From positions 558,001 to 622,000 of the forward strand of contig NZ_RZHF01000004.1 in the NCBI RefSeq assembly GCF_003990185.1: a stretch of DNA of 64,000 bases. The letters run 5' to 3'. Below the pieces are notes generated by a model. The model was not told the origin of the DNA. It worked only from the letters and a program-made list of their open reading frames with translations, and made no database searches. Positions 15,280 through 43,784 of the stretch are shown here, one piece after another (within the stretch, counting starts at the first letter, position 1; each line of letters begins with the position of its first letter). A program made the position numbers and the translations under genes. The stretch is from Vreelandella nanhaiensis (GTDB lineage Bacteria > Pseudomonadota > Gammaproteobacteria > Pseudomonadales > Halomonadaceae).

Positions 15280-16353
15280 TTAGCTTAACCGCTCTGCGGC
15301 TGTTTTTAGCAACCGCTCAGTTGCCTCCCAGCTAACACAGGCATCGGTCACCGAAACGCCATAACGCAGGGTGTTCGGCGTCAAGGGCTGCTTACCTTCA
15401 AATAAGTGGCTTTCCAGCATCAGGGCCACCAGGTTGGCATTTCCAGACTGGCGCTGGGCCACTACATCCAGCATTACTTCACTCTGTCGGCGATGGTCTT
15501 TACACGCATTAGCGTGGCTGCAATCAACCATCAGCCGAGGATTCTGGCCTGCCTGATCAAGCGCCTTAATGGTAGCCTGAACGTGGGATGCCTGATAGTT
15601 AGGCTCGCCATGCCCACCACGTAGCACCACGTGGGTATACGGGTTGCCGGCGGTTTGCTGCATGACCGGGCGCCCATTGCCATCCTGGGCAAAACGCTGA
15701 TGCCCGTGAGCAGCCGCCTGCATGGCATCAATGGCGATTCGTACATCCCCACTGGTAGCATTTTTAAACCCGACCGCCGCTGCCAAATCACTTGCCAGCT
15801 CGCGATGCAGTTGGGATTCCGTGGTGCGCGCACCAATCGCAACCCAGCTTAAAAGATCATCCAGGTAAGGGGCGAGCATGGGTTGAAGCAGCTCGGTGGC
15901 AACCGGCAGACCCCGGGCGGCAACGGCGTGCATCAATTCCCGCGAAAGCGTGATGCCTTTTGCCATATCGCCGCTGCCGTTTAAATCCGGGTCGTAGGCA
16001 AGGCCCTTCCAGCCGACCGTGGTACGAGGCTTTTCCACATAGACCCGCATGACCGGCAGTAACCGCTCGCTTACCTGCTCGCTAAGCACTGCCAGGCGGT
16101 CCGCGTATTCAAGCGCGGAATCTGGGTCATGTATGGAGCAAGGGCCAACCACGATCAGCATACGATCATCATGACCACTTAAAATATTGTGGACCGCTTG
16201 GCGCTGTTGGGTTATTTGCTGGTTTAATCGGGCATCTACCGCCACGCTGTGACGTAGCTGTGCCGGGGTGGGAAGCGGTGTGGTTACGCTGGCCGTGCTG
16301 GCAAGAGATATAGCGTTACGTGCTTGATTCAGGGCATTTGCAGGGGCATTCAT
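15280..16353 (-). CDS. aroF: 3-deoxy-7-phosphoheptulonate (DAHP) synthase
   Basis: Class I (AroF/G/H type) enzyme that condenses phosphoenolpyruvate and erythrose 4-phosphate, the first step of the shikimate pathway to Phe, Tyr and Trp. The 357-residue length fits. Family motifs include VVGPCSIHDP, RVYVEKPRTTVGWKG, GARTTESQLHR and VDCSHANACKDH. GGAG precedes the chosen ATG. The assignment to the tyrosine-sensitive isozyme is inferred from the Tyr-rich leader, so AroF rather than AroG/H is not certain. The start overlaps the stop of the upstream leader ORF as ATGA, and a terminator lies further upstream, so attenuation-type control is likely. Confidence 0.93.
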   Translation of the reverse strand: MNAPANALNQARNAISLASTASVTTPLPTPAQLRHSVAVDARLNQQITQQRQAVHNILSGHDDRMLIVVGPCSIHDPDSALEYADRLAVLSEQVSERLLPVMRVYVEKPRTTVGWKGLAYDPDLNGSGDMAKGITLSRELMHAVAARGLPVATELLQPMLAPYLDDLLSWVAIGARTTESQLHRELASDLAAAVGFKNATSGDVRIAIDAMQAAAHGHQRFAQDGNGRPVMQQTAGNPYTHVVLRGGHGEPNYQASHVQATIKALDQAGQNPRLMVDCSHANACKDHRRQSEVMLDVVAQRQSGNANLVALMLESHLFEGKQPLTPNTLRYGVSVTDACVSWEATERLLKTAAERLS

Positions 16354-16511
16354 AAATTTTTCTCCGGTCTCACATGACATCGTTGGCTGGCGTTGCCACC
16401 CAGGTTGGCGCGGTCGGAGGTGGCAGCTAGCACCGACCGCGCGCCGCTAAATCGCCAGCCATAGCCCACATAGCCGGTTGCAGTAGCGTATGCATAAGCG
16501 CGATAAGTCAT
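16350..16511 (-). CDS. Tyr-rich leader ORF overlapping the DAHP synthase start
   Basis: A 53-codon ORF with an excellent site (AAAGGAG, 8 nt spacing). Its first 19 codons encode five Tyr and one Trp within YRAYAYATATGYVGYGW. Its TGA overlaps the aroF ATG as ATGA, so aroF translation is probably coupled to it. The coding region contains a 10-bp GC-rich hairpin between the Tyr cluster and the stop. This looks like a tyrosine-sensing leader peptide: ribosome stalling at Tyr codons would change the downstream fold and access to the aroF start. The ORF is seen directly; its function is inference. I do not know a described homologue. Confidence 0.65.
   Translation of the reverse strand: MTYRAYAYATATGYVGYGWRFSGARSVLAATSDRANLGGNASQRCHVRPEKNL
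16408..16442 (-). promoter_or_regulatory. GC-rich hairpin inside the Tyr-rich leader ORF
   Basis: A perfect 10-bp stem GCGCGGTCGG / CCGACCGCGC with a 15-nt loop is located after the Tyr/Trp codons and about 55 nt before the aroF start. There is no T-run, so it is not a terminator. It could modulate ribosome passage or coupling. Confidence 0.5.
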
Positions 16512-16565
16512 GGTGTAGCTCCTTTTGATGACGTTTCCAGTACGTTGGTAAGAGACGCTAAACGC

Positions 16566-16598
16566 AAAAAGCCCCGGTTGGGTTACCAACCGGGGCTT
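16566..16598 (-). terminator. Rho-independent terminator (probable attenuator) in the aroF leader
   Basis: A perfect stem AAGCCCCGGTTG / CAACCGGGGCTT with a short loop is followed on the minus strand by TTTTT. It lies 45 nt after the stop of the first aromatic-rich leader ORF and upstream of the second ORF and aroF. No other gene on this strand needs terminating here, so it fits a transcription attenuator. Confidence 0.85.
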
Positions 16599-16622
16599 AG
16601 ATATTCGGCAGGCAACCCAGTA

Positions 16623-16667
16623 GGTGTGCCTGCTAGCGCGACGTTAGCCGTCGGCCATGGGCACACC
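16623..16667 (-). promoter_or_regulatory. Pairing arms overlapping the end of leader ORF 1
   Basis: GGTGTGCC (minus strand, in the Ser-Gly-Val-Pro codons just after the aromatic run) is exactly complementary to GGCACACC after the stop codon. Further downstream, TGGGTT can pair with AACCCA in the terminator loop and 3' arm. This is the layout expected of 1:2 and antiterminator pairings, though the second helix is short. Seen by eye only. Confidence 0.4.
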
Positions 16668-16769
16668 GCTGCTAAACCAATATCCAAAATAGGCCACTAC
16701 GCTCATGCACACGCCAGCCGCCGCGATGGGCAGGCTATTAGTAGTGTGCAAAAACGACGATGCGTGCAT
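16644..16769 (-). CDS. Aromatic-rich leader ORF 1 upstream of aroF
   Basis: A 41-codon ORF with a good AGGAAG site. It contains the run VVAYFGYWFSSG (Tyr-Phe-Gly-Tyr-Trp-Phe) nine codons before its stop, then a perfect terminator 45 nt later. That spacing is typical of amino-acid attenuators. The middle is hydrophobic enough to be a single membrane helix, so a small membrane protein is the alternative. Its Y-x-G-Y...W...F-S-x-G pattern closely resembles leader ORF 2, also at DNA level, suggesting duplication. Function is inference. Confidence 0.6.
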   Translation of the reverse strand: MHASSFLHTTNSLPIAAAGVCMSVVAYFGYWFSSGVPMADG

Positions 16770-16844
16770 ATTCTTCCTGATGATTGGCAAGCCAGGAGGC
16801 TTTGCGAAACGGATTTCATAAAAACGCTGATTTTTTAAATAGAT

Positions 16845-19291: not shown

Positions 19292-19320
19292 CGCCGCCAC
19301 GCCGATTGGCGTTAGCGGCG
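19292..19320 (-). other. Hairpin at the rho-ubiD junction
   Basis: CGCCGC and ACGCC pair with GGCGT and GCGGCG around GATT, covering the rho stop codon. There is no T-run. It may stabilise the mRNA or dampen read-through into ubiD. Confidence 0.35.
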
Positions 19321-20571
19321 CTTCATCGCATCAAAGAACTCAAGGTTCGTCTTGGTATCCTTCAGACGATCAATCAGGAATTCCGTCGCTGCTGTATCTT
19401 CCATGGGGTTGAGCAGCTTGCGCAGAATCCACATGCGCTGCATCTCGTCCTCGGACGCCAGCAGGTCTTCACGGCGTGTACCGCTGCGTCGAATATTGAT
19501 CGCCGGGAACACACGCTTTTCGGCCAGCTTACGGTCAAGGTGCGCTTCCATGTTGCCGGTACCCTTGAATTCCTCGAAGATGACTTCGTCCATCTTGGAG
19601 CCGGTATCCACCAGAGCCGTGGCGATAATGGTCAAACTGCCACCCTCTTCGATATTACGCGCCGCGCCAAAGAAGCGTTTGGGCTTCTCAAGGGCATGGG
19701 CGTCAACACCACCGGTGAGCACCTTGCCAGAGCTAGGTACTACAGTGTTGTAGGCACGCGCCAAACGGGTAATCGAATCCAGCAGGATGACCACGTCTTT
19801 CTTGTGCTCAACCAGACGCTTGGCTTTCTCAATAACCATTTCGGCGACCTGAACGTGACGCGCCGGGGGCTCATCAAAGGTAGAAGCCACGACTTCACCG
19901 CGCACGGTGCGCGACATTTCGGTGACTTCCTCAGGGCGCTCATCAATCAACAGCACGATCAGATGACACTCAGGGTTGTTGCGTGTGATCGATGTCGCAA
20001 TGTTCTGCAGCATCAGGGTCTTACCCGCTTTCGGCGGAGACACCAGCAGACCACGCTGACCTTTACCGATGGGCGCGGTCAGGTCGATGATACGGGCCGT
20101 CAGATCTTCGGTGGAGCCGTTACCGATCTCCATGCGCAGACGCTCATCCGGGAAAAGCGGCGTCAGGTTCTCAAAAAGAATCTTGTGCTTGGCGTTTTCC
20201 GGGCGATCAAAGTTGATCTGGCTAACCTTGAGCAGAGCAAAGTAGCGCTCGCCTTCTTTGGGCGGGCGAATCTTGCCGGAAATGGAGTCGCCTTTGCGCA
20301 AATTGAAACGACGGATCTGCGAGGGCGACACATAGATATCGTCCGGGCCGGCGAGATAGGAGCTGTCGGCGCTACGCAGAAAGCCAAAGCCATCCTGAAG
20401 AATTTCCAGCACACCATCACCATAGATATCCTCACCGCTTTTGGCGTGTTTCTTGAGGATGGCGAAAATGATGTCCTGCTTGCGCGAACGGGCGAGGTTG
20501 TCGATACCCATTTCGCGGGCGATATCGAGCAGCTCGGGAACGGATTTTTGCTTGAGTTCAGTGAGATTCAT
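19312..20571 (-). CDS. rho: Transcription termination factor Rho
   Basis: Hexameric RNA-dependent ATPase/helicase that ends transcription at Rho-dependent sites. The 419 residues equal E. coli Rho. The N-terminal domain ([15 protein letters not shown]) is followed by the RNA-binding cold-shock-like fold with GFLRS at about residue 60. Then come the Walker A motif [17 protein letters not shown], Walker [17 protein letters not shown], and the Q- and R-loops. It is first of rho-ubiD-fre. The ATG lacks an obvious strong ribosome-binding site. The long leader may serve autoregulation, as known for E. coli rho. Confidence 0.99.
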
Positions 20572-43553: not shown

Positions 43554-43632
43554 GGTAAAACTCCTGAAACTCGGGTTAGGCCTCCACGCACCCCATGGAT
43601 CCGACCGGTGACTGCGTCAGACGCGGCCAGCG

Positions 43633-43656
43633 GCACCCGGGACCATGTGCCGGTGC
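43633..43656 (-). promoter_or_regulatory. Hairpin in the rpsB leader, candidate S2 autoregulatory element
   Basis: GCACC-C-GG pairs with CC-GGTGC across a 9-nt loop, in the 230-nt leader between a likely promoter and rpsB. Gammaproteobacterial rpsB leaders carry conserved S2-responsive hairpins. I have not checked that this one matches that motif. The rest of the 358-bp region between rpsB and map has no gene. Confidence 0.3.
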
Positions 43657-43784
43657 ATGTGTGTTTTCAAGGCTTGCTATTAAGCAGCACATCCAAATAG
43701 GGACGCGCTGCGGGTTGTTCGCCTCTCCATGATCGCCTACTCGGGTTAAAGAAGCGAGCGAGCGATTGCAGGAAAGCGCGCGGC

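Follow-up and report, generated by a model that had tools for sequence, protein, structure and literature searches.

Why should the gene for a 3-deoxy-7-phosphoheptulonate (DAHP) synthase be preceded by two short open reading frames (ORFs), each rich in aromatic codons? The question is raised by aroF, on the minus strand of a 64,000-nucleotide (nt) stretch of the Vreelandella nanhaiensis genome (contig NZ_RZHF01000004.1, positions 558,001 to 622,000), which we call the window. We suggest that the aroF mRNA probably carries two ribosome-read sensors in series. The first, leader 1, is well supported, and very likely, as a ribosome-mediated transcription attenuator of aroF with a trp-type layout, and the existence before aroF of a second, ORF2-based element, leader 2, is well supported by comparison of sequences. 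The DAHP synthase gene sets the flow into the shikimate pathway, and here it would carry another conserved element read by ribosomes, one that has a pseudoknot and fixed codons; the tandem of leaders suggests a second layer of control on that pathway.

The order on the minus strand is ORF1, intrinsic terminator, ORF2 and aroF. A first-pass annotation of this DNA had given this layout, together with an ATGA overlap and complementary leader segments, and each of these proved exact. The main parts are:

16644–16769, minus strand: ORF1 (leader peptide 1), 41 codons, MHASSFLHTTNSLPIAAAGVCMSVVAYFGYWFSSGVPMADG followed by a stop, with ...YWFSxGVPxAD recurring in relatives
16569–16598, minus strand: intrinsic terminator (segments 3:4), 13 bp
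16350–16511, minus strand: ORF2 (leader peptide 2), 53 codons
15280–16353, minus strand: aroF, 3-deoxy-7-phosphoheptulonate synthase (class I), by protein-model match

The ORF1 stop and the terminator are 45 nt apart, and the ATGA at 16353–16350 is the aroF start and the ORF2 stop in one. A second ATG lies in the aroF frame at 16380; the start at 16353 is favoured by relatives. The product matches the class I DAHP synthase model TIGR00034 with 432.9 bits, where the cut-off is 173.2, and a 471-nt region of the locus folds better than 100 of 100 dinucleotide shuffles (z -3.95). The genome also holds a second DAHP synthase, 47% identical (L002, G000:C6:20147-21121, minus strand), whose upstream region, checked by eye, contains no aromatic leader ORF.

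Is the tandem conserved? Our sample comprised 80 named loci (Halomonas, Vreelandella, Billgrantia and one Halovibrio), the best 80 of 247 from one scan, with further upstream regions from other genomes of the family, from the order, from the class and from two sister families (best 30 of 40 and best 30 of 37). Family f1 is termed Halomonadaceae after the named loci and family f21 Pseudomonas-like because the RNA P15, discussed below, is present in it; both labels are our own. A pattern scan of 234 aroF upstream regions, some species standing twice, found the ORF1 motif, by a loose pattern, in 225, the strict ORF2 motif (TGGCGATTTA) in 175 and both in 172. Because the two ORFs, each with its motif, reappear ahead of aroF in the majority of these regions, the tandem is, on comparative grounds, conserved and beyond chance. 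At least four of six Shine-Dalgarno (SD) bases precede the ORF2 start in 144 of 149 unique loci, and the aromatic fraction of the last 16 residues through the motif is 0.36 for ORF1 and 0.35 for ORF2. The 30 Pseudomonas-like loci include 27 with a strict ORF2, and two of the remaining three carry TGGCGATTTT. Sister family f43 has ORF1 in 29 of 30 loci and ORF2 in only 4, and four loci from elsewhere in the class have ORF1 in one and ORF2 in none; since these loci mostly hold ORF1 without ORF2, ORF1 is, by this sampling, the wider module of the two. Upstream of the aroF-like gene of family f20 (L164–L170) no ORF2 was found, the TGGCGATTTA of L166 being a probable stray match that is included in the count of 175. 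Terminator-like hairpins can be seen upstream of L164 and L170.

What would the first leader do? Its parts, beyond those given above, are:

16773–16778, minus strand: SD-like AGGAAG of ORF1
16674–16691, minus strand: ORF1 control codons TAT TTT GGA TAT TGG TTT (YFGYWF), with TGGTTTA at 16679–16673
16660–16667, minus strand: segment 1, GGTGTGCC, the exact reverse complement of 16630–16623
16611–16630, minus strand: segment 2, made up of GGCACACC (16630–16623) and GGGTTGCC (16618–16611)
16571–16698, minus strand: match to Rfam RF00627 (P15), 37.2 bits, gathering score 70

A cluster of control codons stands in a translatable short ORF, an intrinsic terminator lies between that ORF and the gene in the window, and an anti-terminator rivals the terminator with covariation at one of two tested positions. 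The earlier proposal of transcription attenuation by ORF1 is supported by these control codons, by a terminator that is conserved and by that covariation. Within segment 2, GGCACACC pairs with segment 1 and GGGTTGCC is the anti-terminator strand, and GGTAACCC (16587–16580), in the 5' arm and loop of the terminator, can pair with segment 2. Of 142 unique cases, 141 write the last W-F of ORF1 as TGGTTT (by that scan, 19 of the 234 regions lack a W-F), and UUUA follows the last Trp in 136 of 142 ORF1s. A strict search found the terminator in 136 of 185 unique regions, and terminators are visible by eye in further regions. At anti-terminator position N1:M1, 101 of the 117 parsed regions are Watson-Crick (T:A 62, A:T 21, C:G 18).

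Several results weigh against this reading of leader 1. The strict search missed the terminator in 49 of the 185 regions; 79 of 196 regions could not be parsed for the anti-terminator; and position N2:M2 is mostly mismatched (C:A 41, C:T 17, C:C 13 and T:C 2, versus T:A 42 and C:G 2). A crude duplex scan set against 10 shuffles did better for the 2:3 pairing in only 43 of 136 regions, and for the 1:2 pairing, an exact 8-bp complement in the window, in 30 of 136. The terminator taken alone is not significant, because a shuffled 900-base region gives 1.4 such sites (standard deviation 1.1).

We posit that a ribosome would translate ORF1 while RNA polymerase transcribes the leader. With Tyr-, Trp- or Phe-tRNA scarce, the ribosome would stall in YFGYWF and cover the foot of the 1:2 hairpin, which would leave GGGTTGCC free to pair with GGTAACCC of the terminator 5' arm and allow transcription to continue; with no such shortage, the terminator would form and a short P15-type RNA would be released.

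Rfam describes RF00627 only as Pseudomonas small RNA (sRNA) P15, filed as a gene, and P15 stops short of ORF2. The match in the window, obtained in a permissive scan (E 2.2e-6 over the full model), is under the gathering score, which makes leader 1 homologous to P15 and not a member by score. Among the relatives scanned, 8 of 19 reach the gathering score, and seven loci of the Pseudomonas-like family score 96–126 bits. A P15 match is present in 41 of 59 f21 genomes, 38 of them over the cut-off. All 40 f21 genomes with this aroF have it, 37 with a score over the cut-off. It shares contig and strand with aroF and lies 147–311 nt ahead of the first aligned base of that gene; the one remaining genome, G646, has P15 and no aroF match at the E-value used. 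Since all 40 of these genomes have P15 ahead of aroF and on the aroF strand, the best reading of P15 is as the attenuated leader RNA of this gene, and a catalogued Pseudomonas RNA gains a proposed function as the attenuated leader of a DAHP synthase.

Is ORF2, in turn, read by ribosomes for its codons? Its own features begin with the following:

16519–16524, minus strand: SD-like AAGGAG of ORF2
16448–16457, minus strand: conserved block TGGCGATTTA, the ORF2 codons W, R and F (WRF) plus one further base
16377–16382, minus strand: in-frame CGA TGT of ORF2 (R-C), where other genera have CGA-ACA or CGA-AGT

ORF2 opens with a Tyr-rich stretch, in the window with Tyr at residues 3, 6, 8, 14 and 17 and Trp at 19, and then reaches the block TGG-CGA-TTT-A. 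Within the block, all 128 unique strict ORF2s use CGA for Arg and all 128 use TTT for Phe, with no synonymous change; in the aroF stretch of 77 loci, used for comparison, CGA accounts for 86 of 2091 Arg codons and TTT for 52 of 196 Phe codons. Block variants are TGGCGATATA in L124 and TGGCGATTTT in L179 and L201, and the genus of L124, with TGG-CGA-TAT, retains an aromatic codon. A downstream motif, CGA[AT][GC][ACT]C, falls in the ORF2 frame 97 times and in the other two frames 9 and 2 times (144 loci), and the later CGA codon, whose next codon is TGT, ACA or AGT, mostly stays in that frame. CGA makes up 134 of 200 Arg codons preceding Cys, Thr or Ser, a count that includes Arg codons at other places. 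Leader 2 matched no family in Rfam scans of the window and relatives, and those scans gave no T-box match.

Between the CGA-TTT block and the later in-frame CGA, the coding sequence of ORF2 can form an H-type pseudoknot:

16433–16442, minus strand: pseudoknot stem a, 5' strand, GCGCGGTCGG
16419–16424, minus strand: pseudoknot stem b, 5' strand, GCCACC
16408–16417, minus strand: pseudoknot stem a, 3' strand, CCGACCGCGC
16395–16400, minus strand: pseudoknot stem b, 3' strand, GGTGGC

Stem a begins 14–18 nt after the T of TGG, that is, 5–9 nt beyond the block, with stem b directly adjoining the 3' strand of stem a. Halomonadaceae have the potential for this fold, as do two f21 genomes, G293 (L157/L190, one mismatch) and G655 (L180). 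An unbroken a-b-a'-b' arrangement with a score of at least 35 occurs in 35 of 44 cluster representatives, versus 4 of 176 sequences with shuffled synonymous codons and 3 of 176 with shuffled bases; L010, L042 and L157, scored as misses, show by eye one stem-a mismatch each. Across several genera the structure is kept with unrelated sequence, namely in L117, L126, L133, L139 and L151. Among 95 aligned sequences (alignment A1), 96.2% of cells pair and 68 cells are changed on both sides, where shuffles gave 16.8 (standard deviation 3.3; 0 of 500 as high) and slid controls at most 26. A1 holds 95 of 98 candidates preselected for at least 5/7 and at least 4/6 pairs, which favours structure in the covariation count; the 44-representative test was made without such preselection, and counts L139, L141 and L151, which A1 omits since their stems lie in another register. 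RNAalifold, in which pseudoknots are not drawable, returned stem a and a weak alternative that joins the fixed block to the stem b 3' strand and is, by eye, lost where stem b changes. A covariance model of stem a only (R1) found one site per genome in 56 of 101 family genomes and 14 of 24 genera, every site in those 56 lying before aroF, 36–192 nt ahead of its first aligned base; across the order, under stricter filters, it found sites in 5 of 194 genomes.

The case for two sensors in series is weakened by the absence of the pseudoknot from most Pseudomonas-like ORF2s, by the persistence there of the TGGCGATTTA block, and by the several lineages that have ORF1 without ORF2, also inside the Halomonadaceae (Vreelandella zhuhanensis L045, V. 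rituensis L047 and Halomonas urumqiensis L078, for example). Because the block stays where the pseudoknot is gone, the pseudoknot cannot explain TGGCGATTTA. It is conceivable, if unlikely, that the block and the downstream CGA motif are instead the site of a trans-acting factor, such as an RNA-binding protein, an sRNA or a nuclease (RNase E, for instance, whose sites are AU-rich single strands ahead of a stem), and that translation of ORF2, or stalling on it, masks this site. Synonymous sites fixed across families, a block that outlives the pseudoknot, and the recurrence of UUUA after the last Trp of most ORF1s would all suit such a factor, as would the lack of a cis partner that accounts for the block, the most recurrent complement being leader-1 segment 2, via G-T pairs. 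On the other hand, the confinement of the downstream motif to the ORF2 frame and the retention of an aromatic codon in L124 when TTT becomes TAT both speak for reading by ribosomes, and no factor has come to light. The pairing of TGGCGATTTA with segment 2 was itself tried and rejected: it is G-T rich, TTC would pair better, and its mean best score was 16.9 versus 15.3 for shuffled queries (145 unique loci).

The spacing of 5–9 nt between the CGA-TTT block and the pseudoknot is like that of known frameshift stimulators, and CGA stands on both sides of the structure. ORF2 might on these grounds be a recoding site, with a -1 frameshift stimulated by the pseudoknot or a hop from the first to the later in-frame CGA. 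We hold this to be very improbable, given that TGG CGA TTT A offers no in-frame slippery heptamer in strict ORF2s and that the pseudoknot is missing from most Pseudomonas-like ORF2s. An ORF2-aroF fusion by frameshift was dropped for a further reason, since the stop-to-start distances reveal no fixed relation between the two frames and hence no conserved fusion. An RNA polymerase pause consensus fits many of the sequences by eye, not all of them, and was also dropped.

How would ORF2 act on aroF? One more feature bears on the junction:

16362–16366, minus strand: aroF SD sequence CGGAG, within the last ORF2 codons

The same placement of the SD sequence is found in most Halomonadaceae. In 120 of 144 loci, the distance from the ORF2 stop to the aroF start is between -17 and +7 nt; in the window, stop and start overlap. 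ORF2 might thus be only a translational-coupling leader, with reinitiation on aroF, whose codons and pseudoknot set a rate while nothing specific is sensed; a boost to downstream translation by leader-ORF reinitiation has been proposed elsewhere (PMC4833913, from an excerpt). Against this stand the remaining 24 loci, with distances of 14–93 nt, among them the Pseudomonas-like representatives L152, L153 and L157–L159 at 44–48 nt. Coupling would, moreover, need neither aromatic enrichment, nor a fixed CGA-TTT block, nor a pseudoknot, and a Tyr-rich coupling leader would be expected to lower aroF under Tyr shortage, the wrong sign for a biosynthetic gene. We rate pure coupling as unlikely. The coupling between ORF2 and aroF put forward in the first-pass annotation therefore fits the majority of loci by position and is not the conserved core, because the Pseudomonas-like representatives depart from it.

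That annotation had also proposed translational attenuation by ORF2, which found little backing in opening energies. Over 43 representatives (L166 omitted), the mean cost of opening the aroF start was 6.5 kcal/mol free, 6.1 with a stalled ribosome, 6.4 with stem a masked and 5.2 with the pseudoknot closed. Closing the pseudoknot made opening easier by a mean of 1.1 kcal/mol relative to masking stem a, by 3–7 kcal/mol in six of the 43 (L023, L038, L073, L122, L132 and L134) and by little in most; the direction of this difference agrees with our reading and its small mean size counts against it, and general masking of the aroF start was not found by this test in the 43 representatives. Masking of the SD sequence by the pseudoknot's CCTCCG, which by eye could pair with CGGAG in Halomonas, was rejected: it fails in the GCCCGG clades and in other genera, and the energy test gave only a small mean effect.

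In the Pseudomonas-like L152–L204, by eye, the end of ORF2 is directly followed by a GC-rich hairpin, which adjoins the aroF SD sequence. A terminating ribosome could open this hairpin; RNAalifold on the ORF2-aroF stretch of these loci gave only a 3-bp consensus stem. The same group has C 0.41 versus G 0.23 in the stretch +10 to +60 (30 unique loci), and an intrinsic terminator after the WRF block was found in 0 of 140 cases, by the scan that missed leader-1 terminators in 49 of 185 regions. Both observations would be in keeping with an action of leader 2 on Rho-dependent termination, in which stalled or passing ribosomes would uncover or shield a C-rich stretch that lies between WRF and aroF. 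We find this quite unlikely, since C and G are equal (0.36 and 0.35, 117 loci) in the other group, which mostly has the pseudoknot, and since exposure of the stretch under starvation would be expected to lower aroF.

We thus place a ribosome-position switch acting on aroF translation or decay first among the candidate functions of leader 2, ahead of coupling, a trans-acting factor, Rho and recoding. For the steps of this second stage, on which we are evenly divided, we propose the following. ORF2 would be translated on transcripts that have passed the terminator, its control codons being mainly Tyr, then Trp, Arg (CGA) and Phe. A ribosome waiting on a codon reaches about 11–12 nt past the first base of the A-site codon. 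One stalled at the Tyr or Trp codons of ORF2 would end a few nt before the pseudoknot and leave it folded; in ORF1, such a ribosome would just cover segment 1, which starts at +12 of TGG. The same stall would hence open the ORF1 hairpin yet spare the ORF2 pseudoknot, because ORF2 has an extra CGA codon. A ribosome that moves on must unfold the pseudoknot and, in most Halomonadaceae, would terminate on the aroF ribosome-binding site. By pathway logic, from which we guess the sign, a folded pseudoknot with its stalled ribosome would most likely favour aroF expression. Ribosomes running on to the end of ORF2 would disfavour independent initiation on aroF.

We would go further only tentatively: ORF2 may possibly represent a novel type of RNA switch, one that is read by ribosomes and stands in series with an ordinary attenuator in a single leader. 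Such a switch would combine amino-acid control codons, a fixed and probably slow pair of codons (CGA before UUU or UAU) and, at narrow spacing, a pseudoknot inside the coding sequence, and the position of the stall would set folding and, through it, the translation or decay of the aroF mRNA. The first-pass annotation mentioned neither the pseudoknot, nor the fixed CGA-TTT codons, nor the P15 match, and its two-stage reading is, from the comparisons above, partly supported.

A search of the organism's own genome with TGGCGATTTANC returned three matches including that at aroF, a number equal to the reversed control; the remaining two fall within long open frames that are not WRF leaders. A plasmid search with the leader returned no match. 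Upstream of aroF on the same strand stand a flavin-reductase-like gene (best model PRK08051, 155.8 bits, below the cut-off of 230), ubiD and rho (19312–20571), and nothing ties them to the leader. Elsewhere in the window, at 43575–43681 on the minus strand, Rfam places a t44 RNA (70.6 bits, over the gathering score), an ordinary RNA family.

Where do these leaders stand among known systems? Leader 1 is like the trp, pheA and his attenuators (trpL, pheL) in its control-codon ORF, its competing 1:2, 2:3 and 3:4 pairings and its terminator, and unlike them in preceding a DAHP synthase gene, in mixing Tyr, Phe and Trp codons and in being followed by a second leader ORF. We do not claim leader 1 as unpublished; earlier comparative work on gamma-proteobacterial attenuators may cover it. 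In the open-licence literature we found no description of the aroF double leader or its peptides, and the gene goes unnamed in the available main text of a 3'-end map for Pseudomonas aeruginosa (PMC8297930). The first-pass annotation held that enteric DAHP synthase genes rely on TyrR and TrpR and not on such a leader. A review agrees as to the regulators (PMC11802643, in excerpt), but leader ORFs before DAHP synthase genes are on record in other phyla: in Corynebacterium glutamicum, aroR, with aromatic codons, precedes aroF (PMC4046766, PMC11802643), and in Acholeplasma the upstream ORF uORFC-13-1 lies beside a terminator stem (PMC8632094). The available excerpts of those papers say nothing of a further leader ORF that carries a pseudoknot. 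For E. coli aroF, too, attenuation was suggested long ago, according to the portions of PMC8632094 and PMC2659441 that cite it.

As a tandem, the aroF leader recalls that of Salmonella mgtCBR, where two short ORFs in one leader act as attenuators for one signal each (PMC3641672, abstract). It differs in that both mgtCBR ORFs act on transcription and in gene and signals, and that abstract names no pseudoknot. The nearest analogue of leader 2, going by the portion of PMC1262725 available, is the LEU element of actinobacterial leuA, which belongs to another gene and another phylum. In the LEU element, Leu codons pair with the leuA SD sequence and close the element, whereas leader 2 has no such base stem: masking the control codons hardly shifts the mean aroF opening energy (6.5 versus 6.1 kcal/mol), and TGGCGATTTA has no recurrent partner at the SD sequence among the matches listed. 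What the two have in common is a leader ORF containing codons for the regulating amino acid, joined to an RNA pseudoknot before a biosynthetic gene.

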